DNA of 37,510 nt from Trichococcus alkaliphilus (GTDB lineage Bacteria; Bacillota; Bacilli; Lactobacillales; Aerococcaceae), in contig NZ_PXZT01000021.1 in NCBI RefSeq assembly GCF_003008695.1, forward strand, positions 1 through 37,510, read 5' to 3'. Position 1 is the stretch's first letter, and every line of letters starts with the position of its first letter. Shown piece after piece: positions 6,031 to 30,196 of the stretch. The notes beneath the pieces are model-generated. The model was not told the DNA's origin, did not search any database, and saw nothing but the letters and a program-made list of their open reading frames with translations. The position numbers and the translations under genes are program-made.

Positions 6031-7038
6031 ATGATTGGAATGGATTGGAAAAAGAAAGTAGCGACAACATTGGCACTGACTTCTGCCTTATTGCTTGGTG
6101 CATGCGCCGGCGGTACAGAAGAAGCGACGGATTCTTCCGCAGCAAGTTCAACAGCATCAGCGGATGCTGTGCATATCGGAATCCTGCAGATCCTTGAGCA
6201 CGAATCGTTATCGGCAGCACGCACAGGTTTTTTGGAAGTTTTGGAGGAAGCTGGTTACGTTGAGGGCGACAATCTGATAGTGGATTACCAAAATGCTCAG
6301 GGTGATCAAGCAAACCTGCAGAGTATGGCTGAGCGTTTAGCCGGCAGCAATGACCTCATTTTAGCAATCTCGACACCAGCCTCACAAGCAATAGCGAATG
6401 CTGAAAAAGAAAATGCGGTCTTGTTCACTGCCGTAACTGATCCGATCGATGCAGGACTTGTGGCAAGCGCAGAGGAGCCGGGTGCAAACATCACCGGAAC
6501 AAGCGATCAAGCACCTATGGACAAACAGATTGAATTGTTGCTGTCGATCGTACCTAGTGCGGAAACAGTCGGCATCATCTTCAACTCCAGCGAAATGAAT
6601 TCCATTGTACAGAGCGATCAAGCGAAAGCATTGTTGGAAGCGGCAGGTGTGAACGTTGAAATCATGACTGTAACTTCCACAAATGATGTGCAGCAAGTTA
6701 TGGAGTCATTGGTACAAAAAGTCGATGCGATCTATATCCCAACGGACAACACCTTATCCAGCACGATGGCTACTGTCGGCCAAATCGCTATGGAAGCCAA
6801 AATCCCTGTCATCCCTGGCGCAACTGAAATGGTGGAAGCTGGCGGATTGGCAACTTACGGAATCGACTTCAAGGAATTAGGTCGCCAGACAGGCGAAATG
6901 GCCTTGCAGATTTTGGAAGAAGGCAAGCTTCCTTCCGAATTGCCTGTCCAATTCCCTGAGACACTTCAATTGGTCATAAATGAAGAGATGGCTGAAGCGC
7001 TGGGAATCGATCCAGACAGCATTAAATTGCCGGAGTAA
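6031..7038 (+). CDS. ABC transporter substrate-binding lipoprotein, TrpX-like (ABC_sub_bind family)
   Basis: A 335-residue lipoprotein with a signal peptide and lipobox LGAC (Cys25) followed by an acidic/Ser/Ala-rich linker. The mature part has the ABC_sub_bind (PF04392-type) pattern: VHIGILQILEHESL, the LAISTPASQAIANA segment, VTDPIDAGLV, NITGTSDQAP and a C-terminal ATYGIDFKELGRQTGEMA. Family members such as TrpX bind aromatic or other amino acids for ABC importers. The ATG at 6031 has AGGGGG seven bases upstream. No permease or ATPase gene follows: the gene ends at a strong terminator and then the leu leader begins, so it must work with a transporter encoded elsewhere or as a sensor. Expression appears controlled by the leader at 5884-5962. 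Ligand unknown. Confidence 0.88.
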   Translation: MIGMDWKKKVATTLALTSALLLGACAGGTEEATDSSAASSTASADAVHIGILQILEHESLSAARTGFLEVLEEAGYVEGDNLIVDYQNAQGDQANLQSMAERLAGSNDLILAISTPASQAIANAEKENAVLFTAVTDPIDAGLVASAEEPGANITGTSDQAPMDKQIELLLSIVPSAETVGIIFNSSEMNSIVQSDQAKALLEAAGVNVEIMTVTSTNDVQQVMESLVQKVDAIYIPTDNTLSSTMATVGQIAMEAKIPVIPGATEMVEAGGLATYGIDFKELGRQTGEMALQILEEGKLPSELPVQFPETLQLVINEEMAEALGIDPDSIKLPE

Positions 7039-7049
7039 GTTATCCACTA

Positions 7050-7091
7050 AAAACGAGGTTGCCCCACTTAGTGCGGCAACCTCGTTTTTTT
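7050..7091 (+). terminator. Terminator after the TrpX-like gene
   Basis: AAAACGAGGTTGCC (7050-7063) pairs perfectly with GGCAACCTCGTTTT (7075-7088); T-run 7085-7091. Confidence 0.9.
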
Positions 7092-7114
7092 GTGGTTTCC
7101 CGGATTTAATCGCT

Positions 7115-7255
7115 CTGCTCCGGGGACAGAGGCCTCGCCGGAGTTCGACTAGATTAAACGTTGCCTCCTCCGATGAGCGAGGCTTCGTCGGAGAAGAGAC
7201 CAAAAGTTACCGGCGAGCTCCGGTGAAAGGGGCCTAACCGGAGCTGCGGGACCGC
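7115..7255. repeat. Intergenic CTCCGG/CCGGAG stem-loop repeat, copy 1
   Basis: Three consecutive hairpin modules: CTCCGG 7118-7123 with CCGGAG 7138-7143; CTCCGA 7168-7173 with a CGGAG end at 7189-7193; CTCCGG 7218-7223 with CCGGAG 7238-7243. Modules 1 and 3 are exactly 100 bases apart and both 26 bases long. The right half (GAGACCAAAA, TTACCGG, CTCCGGTGAAAG, CCGGAG, TGCGGG) aligns base by base with copy 2 at 14950-15090. It lies just after a terminator and fills most of the gap 7092-7343; I see no gene there. Confidence 0.75.
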
Positions 7256-7343
7256 ATGCAGTCAATTGCAGTCCACCACAATCAACCCGCTCCTCTGATT
7301 CCGCACCCCGTCACATGATTTTGTAAGGAAATAGCAAAAGGGG

Positions 7344-7372
7344 TTGACAAAAGAAGCCGCTTTGCATAAAAT
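7344..7372 (+). promoter_or_regulatory. leu operon promoter
   Basis: TTGACA (7344-7349), 17-base spacer, TAAAAT (7367-7372). The start of transcription would be near 7379, giving a leader of about 310 bases before leuA. Confidence 0.8.
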
Positions 7373-7436
7373 GAGAATACGATAATAAAACTTAACGAAA
7401 AATTAGAAGGCTACAAAAAAAGAGGAGGGGATCGTC

Positions 7437-7508
7437 ATGGAAGATGCACACGTATCAGATAACGTAATCATGGGGACAACCCCTTCTTATAACGGCTTAT
7501 TATTATAG
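7437..7508 (+). CDS. Leucine operon leader peptide (attenuator peptide)
   Basis: An ATG at 7437 with AGGAGG (7423-7428) eight bases upstream opens a 23-codon frame, MEDAHVSDNVIMGTTPSYNG then Leu-Leu-Leu, stop TAG 7506-7508. The three leucine codons are all TTA and lie at the very end (7497-7505). The frame sits between the leu promoter and a terminator 67 bases before leuA. This is the classic layout of ribosome-mediated attenuation: scarce charged tRNA-Leu stalls the ribosome on the TTA run and changes folding of the RNA below. A small GGGG-acaa-CCCC hairpin (7472-7483) inside the frame could serve as the RNA polymerase pause. Too short for normal gene callers; I found it by reading the leader. 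Confidence 0.88.
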   Translation: MEDAHVSDNVIMGTTPSYNGLLL

Positions 7509-7549
7509 CAGGGCTTGGACACTGGAATATCAGTCGTTTGAGCCCTGCT
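7507..7549 (+). promoter_or_regulatory. leu leader hairpin A:B
   Basis: AGCAGGGCT (7507-7515) pairs perfectly with AGCCCTGCT (7541-7549); the stem continues inside through GAC and ACTG with CAGT and GT. There is no T-run after it, so it is not a terminator. Its left arm overlaps the leader-peptide stop codon, so ribosome position decides whether it can form. Confidence 0.7.
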
Positions 7550-7557
7550 TGGCATTG

Positions 7558-7615
7558 ACAAATAATGGGGCTGAAGCGATTATTTATTGACCTTCGAAAT
7601 GCATCCATTATTTGT
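7558..7615 (+). promoter_or_regulatory. Candidate leu antiterminator
   Basis: CAAATAATGG (7559-7568) is exactly complementary to CCATTATTTG (7605-7614), extendable by A7558-T7615 and a G-U pair to 12 pairs. The right side occupies the loop and upper stem of the terminator at 7597-7630, so the two folds compete. The left segment can instead pair locally (AAATAAT 7560-7566 with ATTATTT 7579-7585), and GGGCT 7568-7572 can pair with AGCCC 7541-7545 of hairpin A:B. These alternatives would free the terminator. Confidence 0.6.
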
Positions 7616-7630
7616 GGATGCATTTTTTTT
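7597..7630 (+). terminator. leu attenuator terminator
   Basis: AAATGCATCCA (7597-7607) pairs with TGGATGCATTT (7615-7625), seven-base loop, T-run 7623-7630. It lies inside the leu leader, 63 bases before leuA. Confidence 0.9.
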
Positions 7631-7693
7631 CGAAAATTTACTCTTATGATTTTTTAATGAAACCAAACGAAAAATGAACCGGAGGAAAAGACC

Positions 7694-9250
7694 ATGACCG
7701 AAAAACAGTACATTCAATTCTTTGATACGACCCTGCGCGATGGGGAACAGACACCTGGTGTGAACTTCAATACGAAGGAAAAGGTGCAGATTGCCTTGCA
7801 GATGGAAAAATGGGGGATCGATGTTATTGAAGCAGGCTTCCCGATCTCTTCAGAAGGCGACTTTGAAGCGGTAAAGGCGATTGCCGGTGCTGTCAAAAAC
7901 ATGACGGTAGCAGGTCTTGCCCGCTGTAACGAAAAGGACATCGATGCTGCCTATGATGCTTTGAGGGATGCAGTCGATCCGCAGATCCATATTTTTATCG
8001 CGACCAGCTCCATCCATATGGAATACAAACTTAAAATGAGCAAAGAAGAAGTATTGGCCTCAGTAGCCCATCATATTGCTTACGCCAAATCAAAATTCGA
8101 GAAAGTCCAATTCTCTCCAGAGGATGCGACCCGTAGCGATTGGGACTTCCTGGTTGAAGTCATCAACCTGGCCATCGAAAAGGGCGCAACAGTCATCAAT
8201 ATCCCTGACACGGTTGGCTACACCAATCCGACCGAGTTCGGTAACCTCTTCAAATACCTGAAGCAAAACGTAACCCGTTTTGATGACGTCATCTTCTCCT
8301 CCCATTGCCATGATGATCTGGGCATGGCAACGGCTAATGCTTTGGCAGCAGTCGAAAATGGCGCGCTTCGGGTAGAAGGAACCATCAACGGAATCGGCGA
8401 ACGTGCAGGGAATACGGCTTTGGAAGAAGTTGCGGTCGCTCTTCACATCCGCAAAAACTATTATGAAAAAGAAACCGGTATGGTCCTGAAGGAAACGAAG
8501 CGCACAAGCGATTTGGTCAGCCGCCTTTCCGGCATGCCGATTCCGCGCAACAAAGCCGTCATCGGTGGCAACGCCTATGCACACGAATCCGGTATCCATC
8601 AGGATGGCGTGCTGAAGAATCCGGAAACCTACGAAATCATCACACCGCAATTGGTCGGTGTGGAGCACAATTCGTTGCCGTTAGGTAAACTTTCCGGCCG
8701 TCACGCCTTTGTAGATCGGATTGCGCAAATGGGCTATGAAATCAGCGACCCGGCAGAAATCAAAATATTGTTCGCCCGTTTCAAAGAACTGGCTGATAAG
8801 AAGAAAAACGTGACCGAAGAGGACATCCATGCATTGATGGTCGGCAAATCGATCGAGGACGAATCAGCCTACGAGTTGAAACGCCTGCAAGTGCAGTTTG
8901 TGAAGGATGGCATCCAAGGAGCAATCGTCGGCATCCAAGACAAGCGCAATAAAGATACGAAAATGCAGGATTCAGCAACCGGATCAGGAAGTATTGAAGC
9001 CATCTACAACACTATCAACCGCATCCTGGACCAAGAAATCATTTTGAAGGAATACAACATCGAAGCCATCACGGGTGGTAAAGATGCGCAAGCAGAAGTG
9101 CATGTGGTAGTGGAGGATGAGGACGGTAAGAGCTATAACGGCACAGGCATCGACTTCGACGTCCTGACTGCATCAGCGAAAGCGTATATCCAAGCCAGCG
9201 AGAAAGCAAAAAATAAACAGACAATAGAAAAAGTATCAGCACATTTCTGA
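7694..9250 (+). CDS. leuA: 2-isopropylmalate synthase
   Basis: A 518-residue LeuA: condenses acetyl-CoA with 2-oxoisovalerate to 2-isopropylmalate, the first committed step of leucine synthesis, in the cytosol. The TIM-barrel catalytic part shows the divalent-metal motif [14 protein letters not shown] (9-22) and [20 protein letters not shown], then [17 protein letters not shown]. The C-terminal LeuA dimer domain (about 390-510), which binds leucine for feedback inhibition, is present. GGAGG lies seven bases upstream of the ATG. First gene of leuABCD, behind a leader-peptide attenuator; no ilv genes are linked. Confidence 0.97.
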
Positions 9251-9268
9251 TGAGGGGGAAAAAGTAAG

Positions 9269-10315
9269 ATGAATTATACGATTGCAGCATTGCCCGGAGA
9301 TGGCATTGGACCAGAAATAATGGAAAGTGGATTGACTTTGCTGGAAACAATCGGCAAAAAATTTCAACATGAATTCAACGTGACGGTTTACCCATTCGGA
9401 GGAGCCGGCATCGATGAGACCGGCGATCCGATTCCACCGCAAACAATCAAAGGCTGTTCCGAAGCTGATGCGATCCTATTGGCCGCAATCGGCGGACCGA
9501 AATGGGAAAATGCCGAGAAAACGCCGGAAGATGGCCTGTTGCAATTGCGTAAGACTTTGGGACTTTTCTCTAACATCCGCCCGATCGCAGTGAGCGACAG
9601 CATCGCCCACCTGTCCCCATTGAAGACGGAACGCGTTAAAGGCACTGACTTCATCGTTGTCCGCGAATTGACAGGTGGCTTGTACTTCGGCCAGCCGAAG
9701 CACTGGAATGACGAAGAAGCGACAGATACTCTCTTCTATAAGAAGAGCGAAATCGATCGGATTGTCCGCCAAGCTTTTGACATCGCGATGACGCGTGGCA
9801 AAAAACTGACTTCCGTCGATAAAGCGAATGTATTGGCCAGCAGCAAACTGTGGCGCAAAACAGTCAATGAAATCGCAACAGAGTATCCGGAAGTTACCGT
9901 CGATCATTTGTATGTCGATGCGGCTTCGATGAAAATTATCCAAGATCCGACTTCATTCGATGTCATCGTTACGGAAAACATGTTCGGGGACATTCTTAGC
10001 GACGAAGCATCCGTCATCACAGGCTCATTGGGGATGCTGCCTTCCGGAAGCCATGCGGTGTCCGGTCCATCCTTATATGAACCGATCCATGGATCCGCAC
10101 CGGACATCGCCGGAAAAAACATCGCGAACCCGATGTCGATGATCCTGTCCGTTGCCATGATGCTGCGCCAAAGCTTCCAGCTGCATGAAGAGGCGGATGC
10201 GCTTGAAAAAGCGGCTGCCGAAGTGATGGATGCCGGTTTCCTGACGGCTGATTTGGGCGGCACAACTACAACGACAGCATTTACTGAACAAGTGAAAGCC
10301 ATTTTGGAAAAGTGA
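9269..10315 (+). CDS. leuB: 3-isopropylmalate dehydrogenase
   Basis: A 348-residue LeuB: oxidises and decarboxylates 3-isopropylmalate with NAD+ to 2-oxoisocaproate (third step). Motifs of the isocitrate/isopropylmalate dehydrogenase family are intact: ALPGDGIGPEIM at the N-terminus, VRELTGGLYFGQP, the metal-binding region ENMFGDILSDEASVITGSLGMLPS and the NAD site PIHGSAPDIAGKNIANP. The gene starts 18 bases after leuA with AGGGGGA as ribosome site and is followed after 15 bases by leuC, so it is co-transcribed. Confidence 0.97.
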   Translation: MNYTIAALPGDGIGPEIMESGLTLLETIGKKFQHEFNVTVYPFGGAGIDETGDPIPPQTIKGCSEADAILLAAIGGPKWENAEKTPEDGLLQLRKTLGLFSNIRPIAVSDSIAHLSPLKTERVKGTDFIVVRELTGGLYFGQPKHWNDEEATDTLFYKKSEIDRIVRQAFDIAMTRGKKLTSVDKANVLASSKLWRKTVNEIATEYPEVTVDHLYVDAASMKIIQDPTSFDVIVTENMFGDILSDEASVITGSLGMLPSGSHAVSGPSLYEPIHGSAPDIAGKNIANPMSMILSVAMMLRQSFQLHEEADALEKAAAEVMDAGFLTADLGGTTTTTAFTEQVKAILEK

Positions 10316-10330
10316 AGGGGAGTAGACAGT

Positions 10331-11719
10331 ATGAGCAGAACGCTTTTTGATAAACTATGGGACAGACACGTTATTACAGGACCAGAAGGTGAACCACAAT
10401 TGTTGTATGTGGATCTGCACCTGATCCATGAAGTCACTTCACCACAAGGCTTCGATGGCTTGCGCGAAACCAACCGCCCAGTCCGACGTCCTGACAAAAC
10501 GATCGCAACGGTCGACCACAATGTGCCGACGGAAGATATCTTCAACATCAAGGATCTGATTTCGAAGAAACAGATCGAAGCGCTGCAGAAGAATTGCGCA
10601 GAATTCAACATCCCATTGATGGACATCGGCACAGCCAACCAAGGGATCGTGCATATGGTTGGACCTGAATTGGGCGCAACCCAACCAGGTAAGATTGTCG
10701 TCTGCGGAGATTCGCATACGGCTACACATGGCGCTTTCGGAGCGATGGCATTCGGTATCGGCAGCTCGGAAGTGGAGCATGTTTTTGCAACGCAGTCGAT
10801 CTGGCAGAAAAAACCGAAATCGATGGGCGTCAAAATCACCGGCAAATTACCTGCAGGCGTCTATGCGAAAGATATCATTCTGCACCTGATCGCGACGTAC
10901 GGGACAGCCTTCGGGAGCGGCTACGCGATTGAATTCTACGGGGATACTGTGGAAGCCTTGACGATGGAAGAACGGATGACAATCTGCAATATGTCCATCG
11001 AATTCGGTGCCAAAATTGGCATGATGGCGCCGGACCAGACTACCTACGATTACCTGCGCGGCCGCCGTTATGCACCGGAAAACATGGAGAAGGCCATCGC
11101 AGATTGGGAAACACTGAAGAGTGACCCCGATGCTGTCTATGACACTGACATCGCTATCGAAGTTTCCGACTTGGCGCCTTATGTAACCTGGGGAACAAAC
11201 CCGGGCATGGGCGTGCAATTCGGCGAAAAATTCCCTGAAATCCAGGACAAGAATGACGAGCGCGCTTATAACTACATGGATCTGCAACCCGGCCAGACAG
11301 CTGAAGAAATTCCATTGGGCTTTGTCTTCATCGGCTCTTGTACGAATGCGCGTCTGTCCGATCTGATCGAAGCTGCGAAGTACGTCAAAGGCGGCAAAGT
11401 GCCTGACCATATCCAGGCTATGGTCGTTCCGGGCAGCCGGACCGTCCGTGATGCTGCTGCGGAGTTGGGATTGGACAAAATCTTCATCGATGCTGGATTT
11501 GAATGGCGCGAACCAGGTTGCTCGGCTTGTTTGGGGATGAACCCGGATAAAGTGCCTGCAGGGGTACACTGTGCCTCAACTTCCAACCGTAACTTTGAAG
11601 GCCGTCAAGGAAAGGGTTCCCGGACGCACTTGGTCAGCCCAGCCATGGCAGGCGCTGCAGCAGTGAACGGTAAATTTGTGGATATCAGAAAGGAAGCAGT
11701 GACTTATGGAGCCAATTAA
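10331..11719 (+). CDS. leuC: 3-isopropylmalate dehydratase large subunit
   Basis: A 462-residue aconitase-type LeuC. With LeuD it isomerises 2- to 3-isopropylmalate through a 4Fe-4S cluster. The three cluster ligands are visible: Cys337 in [12 protein letters not shown] and Cys397/Cys400 in [11 protein letters not shown]. The N-terminal [12 protein letters not shown] and [19 protein letters not shown] segments are typical. GAAGGGGAG precedes the ATG. The 3' end overlaps the leuD start by 14 bases, which suggests translational coupling to hold the two subunits equal. Confidence 0.97.
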
Positions 11720-12293
11720 AGTACATAACGGTAAAACCGTTGCCTTGATGAACAACAACATCGATACCGACCAAATCATCCCGAAAGTATTCCTGAAACG
11801 GATCGAAAAAACGGGCTTTGGCGCTTTCGTTTTTGATGAATGGCGTTTCCTGAAAAACGGCGACCCAAATCCGGAATTCCCTTTGAACGATGCCGACCGC
11901 CAAGAAGCAACGATCCTCGTAACCGGGGATAACTTCGGCTGTGGCTCATCCCGTGAACATGCCGCTTGGGCATTGAAGGATTACCGTTTCCGCGTCATCA
12001 TCGCCGGCAGTTACAGCGATATCTTCTATATGAACTCCTTGAAGAACGGACTGTTGTTGATCGAGTTGCCGCAAGAGCAACGTGACGCTTTGGCGCAGGT
12101 GCCGGCGAATGAAACCATCCAGATCGATTTGCCGAATCAAGTGGTCAGAACCAGCACAGCCGAGTATCCTTTCGCTATCGATCCGACTTGGAAGCACAAA
12201 TTGGAAAACGGCATCGACGACATCACCGAAACGATGGCCTATAAAGATGAGATTGATGCTTATGAAGCAAAATGGGACAATATTTACGCATAA
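11706..12293 (+). CDS. leuD: 3-isopropylmalate dehydratase small subunit
   Basis: A 195-residue LeuD swivelling-domain subunit, the usual length. The conserved opening ([37 protein letters not shown]), the substrate-binding segment [17 protein letters not shown] and the ending [28 protein letters not shown] are present. It starts inside leuC, with its AAGGA ribosome site also inside leuC. Last gene of the operon; a terminator follows at 12300. Confidence 0.96.
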
Positions 12294-28561: not shown

Positions 28562-30196
28562 TTATGCTTGTTCTTTATAAAGTGCATTGATTCTTGCTTG
28601 GACATCCTTATCCGCCAAGAAGTCTTCATAGGTTGTTTCCATTCTGTCCACAACGCCGTTTGGAGTCACTTCGATGATGCGGTTCGCAGTAGTGTTGATG
28701 AACTCGTAATCGTGTGAAGTGAACAACAACGCGCCTTTGAAGGCGATCATGCCGTCATTCAAGGCAGTGATGGATTCAAGATCCAAGTGGTTCGTCGGGT
28801 CATCCAATACCAAGACGTTTGCTTTGGTAAGCATCATTTTCGATAGGATGATACGTACTTTTTCTCCCCCGGATAGGACAGAAACTTTTTTCATTACGTC
28901 TTCACCTGAGAACAGCATGCGGCCCAAGAAGCTGCGCAAGAAGGTATTGTCATCCTCTTCTTTGCCTGCGAATTGGCGCAACCATTCCAAAATAGTGATG
29001 TCGGCAACCGGGAATTCGTTCGTGTGGTCCTTCGGCAAGTAGCTTTGTGACGTTGTGACGCCCCATTTGAAAGTACCGCCGTCAGCTTCCATTTCACCCA
29101 TCAAAATTTTGAAGAGGGTGGTAGTAGCGATATCTTTGCGGCTTGCGAAAGCGACTTTATCGTTTTTGTTCAAAGCAAAGCTGATTTTGTCCAAAATTTT
29201 GACGCCATCGATTGTCTTGGAAAGGTTCGAAACGATCAGCAAGTCATTACCGATTTCGCGTTCTGGGGTGAAGCCTACGAAAGGATATTTACGGGATGAT
29301 GGTTGAATATCATCCAATGTGATTTTATCCAATGTCTTTTTACGTGAAGTCGCTTGTTTGGATTTCGATGCATTTGCACTGAATCGCGCAATGAAGTCCT
29401 GCAATTCCTTGATCTGCTCTTCTTTTTTCGAATTGGAATCAGCTGCCAATTTAGAAGCCAATTGACTGGATTGCATCCAGAAGTCGTAGTTACCGACATA
29501 AAGTTTGATCTTTCCGAAGTCGACGTCACACATGTGCGTACAAACCGTGTTCAGGAAGTGACGGTCATGGGAAACAACGATGACGGTGTTAGGGAAGTTG
29601 ATCAGGAACTCGGATAACCATTCGATAGATTCTTTGTCCAAACCGTTTGTCGGCTCATCCAATAGCAATACGTCAGGTTTGCCGAATAATGCTTGCGCCA
29701 GCAAAACTTTTACTTTTTGCGGCTCCAACAGGTCGCTCATTTGCTTGAAGTGCAACTCTTCACCGATTCCTAAACCTTGCAAGAGACTTGCAGCATCGGA
29801 TTCGGCTTCCCATCCATCCAATTCGGCAAATTCGCCTTCAAGTTCGCCGGCTCTGATGCCGTCTTCCTCAGTGAAATCAGTTTTTGCATAGATAGCATTT
29901 TTTTCATCCATAATGGCATAAAGACGTTTGTGACCCATGATGACAGTGTCCAGTACTTGATGATCTTCGAAACCATAGTGGTTTTGGTTAAGCACAGCTA
30001 AACGTTCATTTGGATCTAAAATGATATCTCCGGTGGTGGGCTGGATGACGCCTGATAAAATCTTCAAAAAAGTAGATTTTCCAGCTCCGTTGGCACCGAT
30101 GACGCCATAGCAGTTACCAGGGGTGAACTTTAGATTAACATTGTCAAACAACTTGCGATCGGAAAATTGTAGGCTGACATTTGATACGGTAATCAT
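28562..30196 (-). CDS. ABC-F family ATPase (YkpA/YbiT-like)
   Basis: A 544-residue soluble twin-ATPase of the ABC-F family, which act on ribosomes; there are no membrane segments. Domain 1 has Walker A GANGAGKSTFLKIL and Walker B VLLLDEPTNGLD, but its signature reads LLEPQK instead of LSGGQ. A charged linker (about 250-300, KSKQATSRKKTLDKI) separates the domains. Domain 2 has a good signature LSGGEK, but Walker A is degenerate (FASRKDIATTTLFKIL, no Gly-Lys) and Walker B ends in LDDPTNHLD, Asp in place of the catalytic Glu. This pattern resembles the YkpA/YbiT branch rather than antibiotic-resistance ABC-Fs. GAGGA lies about nine bases before the ATG. Confidence 0.9.
   Translation of the reverse strand: MITVSNVSLQFSDRKLFDNVNLKFTPGNCYGVIGANGAGKSTFLKILSGVIQPTTGDIILDPNERLAVLNQNHYGFEDHQVLDTVIMGHKRLYAIMDEKNAIYAKTDFTEEDGIRAGELEGEFAELDGWEAESDAASLLQGLGIGEELHFKQMSDLLEPQKVKVLLAQALFGKPDVLLLDEPTNGLDKESIEWLSEFLINFPNTVIVVSHDRHFLNTVCTHMCDVDFGKIKLYVGNYDFWMQSSQLASKLAADSNSKKEEQIKELQDFIARFSANASKSKQATSRKKTLDKITLDDIQPSSRKYPFVGFTPEREIGNDLLIVSNLSKTIDGVKILDKISFALNKNDKVAFASRKDIATTTLFKILMGEMEADGGTFKWGVTTSQSYLPKDHTNEFPVADITILEWLRQFAGKEEDDNTFLRSFLGRMLFSGEDVMKKVSVLSGGEKVRIILSKMMLTKANVLVLDDPTNHLDLESITALNDGMIAFKGALLFTSHDYEFINTTANRIIEVTPNGVVDRMETTYEDFLADKDVQARINALYKEQA

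Follow-up and report, generated by a model that had tools for sequence, protein, structure and literature searches.

A candidate ribosome-mediated attenuator arranged as a relay of mutually exclusive helices upstream of leuABCD in Trichococcus alkaliphilus

Ribosome-mediated attenuation of branched-chain amino acid (BCAA) operons in Bacillota and the relay of multiple hairpins (in the enterobacterial his operon) are both already known. For Staphylococcus aureus, the accessible text of PMC5794164 describes an ilv-leu attenuator with a BCAA-codon leader peptide, whose reporter responds to leucine limitation. The Trichococcus leader considered here resembles it in having a BCAA leader peptide followed by a terminator (52 nt after the stop codon in S. 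aureus); however, the antiterminator of S. aureus base-pairs to the poly-U tail without disrupting the terminator stem, the operon is ilv-leu with Ile and Leu codons, and the same part of the source describes no relay (PMC5794164). The Rli60 leader of Listeria monocytogenes is likewise presented as a ribosome-mediated attenuator, with experiments, but one of four segments, and mutants whose leader cannot be translated transcribe less, whereas a bare five-segment relay predicts read-through of an untranslated leader (accessible part of PMC5864092). Leader-peptide attenuation has also been predicted for BCAA leaders of Lactococcus lactis and Streptococcus, which concern the same genes as here (accessible parts of PMC5794164 and PMC6123439). 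Outside these bacteria, the enterobacterial his attenuator is similar in being a stem-loop relay, AB-CD-EF versus BC-DE, set by the position of a ribosome on cognate codons, but differs in its six segments, in the strengthening of attenuation when the ribosome is absent, and in operon and sequence (available text of PMC10989985). Antiantiterminator, antiterminator and terminator hairpins also occur in ilvBNC of Corynebacterium glutamicum, where they are supported by mutations; this leader, from Actinobacteria, has three hairpins and uses Leu and Val control codons, unlike ours (available text of PMC11857589). A literature search, with subscription papers mostly outside its coverage, turned up no five-segment relay described for Bacillota and no account of this Trichococcus leader, and neither was found in the accessible parts of two broad surveys (PMC2965389 and PMC8632094).

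The window (the whole stretch of 37,510 nucleotides that was analysed, from a genome of 2.96 Mb) contains the leader between leuABCD and an upstream gene related to tryptophan ABC transporter binding proteins (below the model's cut-off). Among the best 80 loci, the nearest named relative of its leuA is from a Trichococcus MAG (98% over residues 1-374). Transcription probably starts near 7379, as placed by the predicted promoter (Table 1); the region 7000-7800 contains three promoter-like sites, with 1.0 expected from shuffles. Upstream of this promoter are three palindromic repeats, CTCCGR N7 GGCYT NN YCGGAG (7118-7143, 7168-7193 and 7218-7243), spaced by exactly 50 bases; this pattern has 13 matches in the genome and its reverse has none. 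The leader comprises a short ORF that carries a ribosome site and a cognate codon run, and a terminator between this ORF and leuA. As the preliminary description had it, the 23-codon ORF ends in TTA TTA TTA and a stop codon (TTATTATTATAG, 7497-7508), and an 11-pair intrinsic terminator (7597-7607/7615-7625) with a U-tract extending to 7630 is located 63 bases before the leuA ATG (7694). The perfect 10-base complement that it placed at 7559-7568/7605-7614, and the further alternatives at 7507-7515/7541-7549, 7560-7566/7579-7585 and 7541-7545/7568-7572, are also found there as perfect complements. A generic terminator scan did not list the terminator of the leuA leader, its sole match being elsewhere on the minus strand.

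Table 1. Positions of the leuABCD leader elements and of the operon in the window.
Feature	Position	Strand	Basis
Promoter, sigma-70-like, TTGACA-17-TAAAAT	7344..7372	+	11/12 consensus positions; both hexamers constant in 14-leader alignment
Shine-Dalgarno-like GAGGAGGGG of leader ORF	7422..7430	+	sequence
Leader peptide ORF MEDAHVSDNVIMGTTPSYNGLLL*, 23 codons + TAG, C-terminal Leu-Leu-Leu	7437..7508	+	ORF open in 14/14 Trichococcus leaders
Putative sensing codons TTA TTA TTA	7497..7505	+	Leu run + stop 12/12 columns invariant
Segment 0 (Leu codons), possible partner of C (7561-7573), enclosing A:B, without ribosome	7493..7504	+	prefix folds
Arm A, directly 3' of a ribosome in a first-Leu stall	7507..7524	+	A:B stem; P ~1 when free
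Arm B, partner of A or C	7532..7549	+	17/18 columns invariant
Arm C, partner of B or D	7552..7581	+	7559-7578 20/20 columns invariant
Arm D, terminator 5' arm + loop; antiterminator partner of C	7596..7614	+	7597-7614 16/18 columns invariant
Arm E + U-tract of intrinsic terminator	7614..7630	+	7615-7625 11/11, 7626-7630 5/5 columns invariant
leuABCD, operon downstream of leader	7694..12293	+	NCBIfam leuA, leuB, leuC, leuD models over cut-off

We consider it likely that this leader is a ribosome-mediated transcription attenuator for leuABCD in which four mutually exclusive helices form a relay. The peptide would be translated and the leader would respond to leucine as follows. When leucine is short, the ribosome would halt at the first of the three TTA codons, its 3' edge not quite reaching arm A, so A:B could form, and C would stay free to pair with D as D emerges; C:D would then pre-empt the terminator D:E and leuABCD would be transcribed. 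When leucine is plentiful, the ribosome would reach the stop codon and cover A, B would pair with C, and D would be left free to form D:E at the U-tract, ending transcription before leuA. C:D is expected to precede D:E, as C is transcribed earlier than E.

The stems of this chain are A:B (7507-7520/7536-7549, -26.3 kcal/mol), B:C (7532-7546/7567-7581, 14 pairs and one G-G mismatch, -22.8 kcal/mol), C:D (7552-7569/7604-7621, -23.6 kcal/mol) and D:E, delimited by the chain test as 7596-7608/7614-7626 and the weakest of the four (-21.1 kcal/mol). The B:C step suggested earlier is larger than the five pairs then named. In the chain test, four serial stems were required, with neighbours sharing an arm and the last ending at a U-tract, and the weakest stem was taken as the score. 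None of 4000 dinucleotide shuffles matched the window leader (shuffle mean 2.7, maximum 10.9), which shows the his-type feature, a chain of mutually exclusive helices ending in a terminator. The fold of 7395-7640 as a whole (-85.4 kcal/mol, z -7.6) was equalled by 0 of 200 shuffles.

Alignment of 14 Trichococcus leaders (12 distinct) reveals that conservation is concentrated in the Leu run and the arms. The run and its stop codon are entirely invariant, versus 29 of 60 columns for codons 1-20 of the ORF, and the Shine-Dalgarno region (7421-7436) is poorly conserved in the genus (7/16). Arm A is invariant at 13 of 16 columns (7509-7524), and the values for arms B to E and the U tail are given in Table 1; less constant stretches are the A:B loop (2/7), the spacer 7579-7596 (13/18) and the 64 bases of leuA that follow its start codon (44/64). 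The ORF is in frame in all 14 leaders, one being 3 bases longer and one having a GTG start. Even in the leader that diverges most (L014, 79% over 407 aligned columns), in which the peptide is altered at most positions, the GLLL-stop end is retained and arms B, C and E are identical letter for letter. The preliminary description would have been contradicted if close relatives had failed to preserve the Leu run or the 7559-7568/7605-7614 pairing, and both are constant in 14/14 leaders; the covariation that it proposed to seek is a different matter, since the arms, although conserved, are too invariant for it. Both bases of one A:B pair are replaced in a single leader (A-U to G-C), 0 of 11 counted B:C pairs vary, and the U-G pair 7556/7617 of C:D is lost in two leaders.

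Folding was constrained by an assumed ribosome footprint from -14 to +13 relative to the A-site base, such that a stall at the first Leu codon masks 7483-7510 and a ribosome at the stop codon masks 7492-7519. For nine 5' ends from 7377 to 7437, the stop state gives probabilities of 1.0 for B:C, 0 for C:D and 1.0 for D:E, in agreement with the earlier proposal that a ribosome on the stop codon masks A, lets B trap C and allows the terminator to form. The companion proposal for the stalled state holds fully for A:B (1.0 for all nine 5' ends) and in part for the antiterminator: C:D versus D:E is 0.35/0.65 from 7377-7395 and 0.28/0.72 from 7400, and only with a cut 5' end does C:D reach about 0.93-0.95 (from 7407, D:E 0.07) or 0.91 (from 7437, D:E 0.09). 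Since the real start is predicted from the promoter to be near 7379, 0.35 is the fairer figure, the higher value of 0.95 being due to the omission of 7379-7406 from the fold. An alternative structure incompatible with the terminator is present: C:D falls from 0.35 when the ribosome is at the first Leu codon to 0 when it is at the stop codon, with D:E still leading at 0.65 in the stalled equilibrium; the stalled state would lower termination at equilibrium, but not to zero. With the footprint assumed, stalls at the second or third Leu codon fold to the terminator, and only the first-Leu stall leaves A usable.

The default of the untranslated leader is uncertain and a main point of doubt in these models, because C:D has a probability of 0.73 in the ribosome-free RNA (from 7377-7395; 0.31 from 7400, 0.96 from 7407 and 0.84 from 7437) and yet the Leu codons pair with C (9-12 pairs) in ribosome-free prefixes from 7437 ending at 7570-7610. 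This pairing of segment 0 with C gives way to C:D in prefixes ending at 7615 or later. In a his-type relay, a protector pairing of this sort would make the untranslated leader terminate. The order of events also matters in the stop state: B:C is at 0.99 when the 3' end is at 7600, and a snapshot with D already out gives C:D 0.98 at equilibrium, so that the terminator of the window would rely on the persistence of the B:C helix formed earlier.

Because a DNA search of 60 genomes for the leader outside Trichococcus gave only chance-level matches among the matches listed, relatives were sought through leuA, which had a match in 26 of 76 family genomes (E up to 1e-100) and in 186 of 395 order genomes (E up to 1e-120). 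Together with the window, 190 upstream stretches (79 from the best 80 loci, 13 from the family, and 18 plus 80 from the order) made a set of 191, in which some species occur twice and leuA is in many cases within an ilv-leu operon. A mechanical filter for ribosome-site-like bases, at least three consecutive Leu codons and a stop within 12 codons detected a Leu-run leader ORF in 101/191 stretches (including L076, judged spurious), compared with 5/191 reversed and 4/191 shuffled stretches. After merging leaders with identical first 110 bases, leaving out eight loci of a looser list that were spurious or not Leu runs (L044, L049, L076, L092, L094, L151, L152 and L174) and dropping L237, in which no terminator was found, 80 distinct leu leaders were obtained. 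Their runs consist mostly of TTA (200) and TTG (60) codons, followed by CTG (10), CTA (3), CTT (2) and CTC (2), and the stop is located 9 to 36 bases past the first Leu codon. Arm A starts shortly after the bases that a ribosome at the first Leu codon would cover (starts below 13 bases are masked in the folds), and the ORF continues through A in L033 and L036. Within the family but outside Trichococcus, a Leu-run ORF precedes 8 of 13 leuA genes (L153 and L156-L162) and is not found before the other five (L151, L152, L154, L155 and L163).

Three architectures were distinguished by eye: a relay with GCATT (Trichococcus, an Enterococcus group, Atopococcus and others), a relay without GCATT (Streptococcus, Floricoccus and the L241 group), and a single-hairpin class (L218, L225, L039, L041, L043, L247 and others) with the Leu run, A:B and one GCATTGCA..GGARTGC hairpin that is followed by a U-tract and often contains a G-G mismatch. 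No common antiterminator was seen by eye in the single-hairpin leu leaders when A with C, A with E and B with C were considered. The chain test was applied to 34 of the 80 distinct leu leaders and to 11 ilv leaders, labelled as relay or single-hairpin by inspection. Among the 29 so labelled as relay (18 leu and 11 ilv), 26 were at 0/200 shuffles, including three Streptococcus leaders (L050, L052 and L071), and three were at 1/200 (L286, L058 and L156). By comparison, the 16 single-hairpin leaders had no chain in seven cases and an unremarkable chain in seven (equalled by 20 to 86 of 200 shuffles), the other two having weak chains (L045, 0/200 with 7.2 versus a maximum of 7.1; L234, 1/200). An earlier version of the test, with mismatches only and 100 shuffles, missed the chain in the ilv leader of the same genome (36/100 equal) and in L050 (59/100); with bulges allowed, both are at 0/200, narrowly, and margins over the shuffle maximum are small for ilv (9.3 versus 9.0), L050 (10.2 versus 9.7) and L198 (9.6 versus 9.3).

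Switch folds covered 21 of the 29 relay leaders. At full-length equilibrium with cut 5' ends, C:D is favoured in the stalled state in only three (the window, L036 and L177), and the stop state of the same folds gives D:E of at least 0.92 in 21/21 and B:C of at least 0.5 in 16/21. In the D-exposed snapshot, stalled C:D reaches 0.5 in 17 of the 21 leaders; with the ribosome on the stop codon, B:C is at least 0.5 in 11 and C:D is below 0.5 in 14. C:D is near zero in every state of this snapshot for L283 and L241, in which arm location may be faulty. As C:D prevails at equilibrium in so few of the stalled relay leaders, kinetic trapping would be needed for the switch to work.

Other explanations of this leader have to be weighed. 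It is conceivable that a classic four-segment attenuator is at work, in which C:D and D:E suffice, A:B causes pausing and B:C plays no part, as the published Rli60 model of L. monocytogenes has four segments in the accessible part of its source (PMC5864092) and C has a second local partner at 7579-7585. However, this would leave without a role a B:C helix of 14 pairs and -22.8 kcal/mol, whose stem belongs to the chain in the 29 relay leaders, and the invariant part of C (7559-7578, 20/20) exceeds the stretch that pairs with D. We therefore find a four-segment device rather improbable, and the preliminary description's preference for a relay over such a switch is supported, with the constrained folds shifting in the predicted direction. 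A different objection is that the long C:D hairpin (7552-7569/7604-7621), which ends one base before the U-tract of D:E, might itself terminate transcription, leaving the leader only weakly regulated. A look-alike seems to terminate in the single-hairpin leu leaders of other genera, among which L218, L225 and L041 have only the GCATTGCA..GGARTGC hairpin and U-tract, with a G-G mismatch as in the window. But Trichococcus also retains a separate, perfect 11-pair terminator, and an unvarying B:C would be pointless if both states terminated, which makes this reading unlikely.

It is far less probable still, to the point of being hardly credible, that a T-box or metabolite riboswitch controls the operon and the short ORF is incidental. 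Such a reading could draw on the T-box of leuS in the same genome and on that of the Bacillus subtilis ilv-leu operon (accessible part of PMC5794164), but it is the Leu codons that are most strongly conserved within the ORF. No Rfam covariance model matched the window at the gathering score, so a T-box or another Rfam family was rejected for the leader, and the T-box model (RF00230) is not among the four sub-threshold matches in 7100-7800 (E up to 5). The proteobacterial leucine leader is presumably among the Rfam families. Across 17 loci with similar leaders, the one match at the gathering score was Ref84 (Enterococcus sRNA 84), which is located elsewhere in an Enterococcus locus, upstream of its leu leader (L036:1248-1334). 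A CodY box, scanned for with what we take to be its motif, was not found near the promoter, and the whole window had two matches with up to 3 mismatches (at 30059 and 34094), with 3.1 expected. The leuS T-box is located upstream of leuS on the minus strand (L267:153-360, 128.7 bits) and is one of 26 T-box matches in the genome, of which 14 are over the cut-off; two kinds of leader seem to coexist in the leucine pathway of this organism.

The attenuator relay may not be restricted to leu operons. A second candidate leader-peptide attenuator was observed in the same genome before an ilvB-ilvC-ilvA cluster (L266:3955-4115, contig C11), in which the small gene between ilvB and ilvC was assumed to be ilvN. 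Its peptide, MKTMNPLNIIIVLMI, contains IIIVLMI and is followed by a similar succession of arms A to E, the C:D stem scored by the chain test being different from the stem recognised by eye (ATGGGATG/CATCCCAT). The DNA of this leader is present in 13/13 Trichococcus genomes and 0/63 other family genomes. A C-D-E pattern, written from leaders already seen and missing the window's own leader and most others, had three matches in 395 order genomes (none for its reversed control), all located before ilvB or ilvD and behind BCAA-rich short ORFs. Upstream of ilvD, a BCAA-rich ORF followed by a relay was found in Listeria (3/3 genomes searched) and Staphylococcus (4/4), whereas second ilvD-like matches in two staphylococci and the matches in Lactococcus and Floricoccus had no BCAA-rich ORF. 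Chains as strong as those of the ilvD leaders of three other Listeria species (L287, L289 and L291) occurred in 0/200 shuffles each, and for four other staphylococci (L284, L285, L286 and L290) in 0, 0, 1 and 0 of 200. These leaders fit a five-segment relay, unlike the models published for S. aureus and L. monocytogenes as given in the accessible parts of their sources. The arm sequences appear alike between leu and ilv leaders when compared by eye, which suggests that the two may be of common descent. We see roughly even chances that one homologous, uncatalogued A-B-C-D-E platform (with arms like GAGTCCTATT / AATGGGAT / GCATCCCAT) has spread over Lactobacillales, Listeria and Staphylococcus, with the sensing codons LLL, IIIVLM, LLLVVL or IVILVI before leu or ilv genes.

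The relay proposed here is a specific RNA architecture by which Bacillota could sense amino acids in addition to using T-boxes, and the genome studied combines a T-box before leuS with leader peptides before the leu and ilv operons. The analysis also exposes a class of leucine leaders with no visible antiterminator. A clear-cut prediction about an untranslated leader follows from the parity of the relay; it separates a relay from a trp-type model and bears on the published attenuators of Listeria and Staphylococcus. If the platform reading is true, the default of a bare relay would be opposite to that of trp, such that an untranslated leader would read through unless a sixth segment intervenes, and both the four-segment model of Rli60 and the poly-U model of S. 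aureus would need redrawing.
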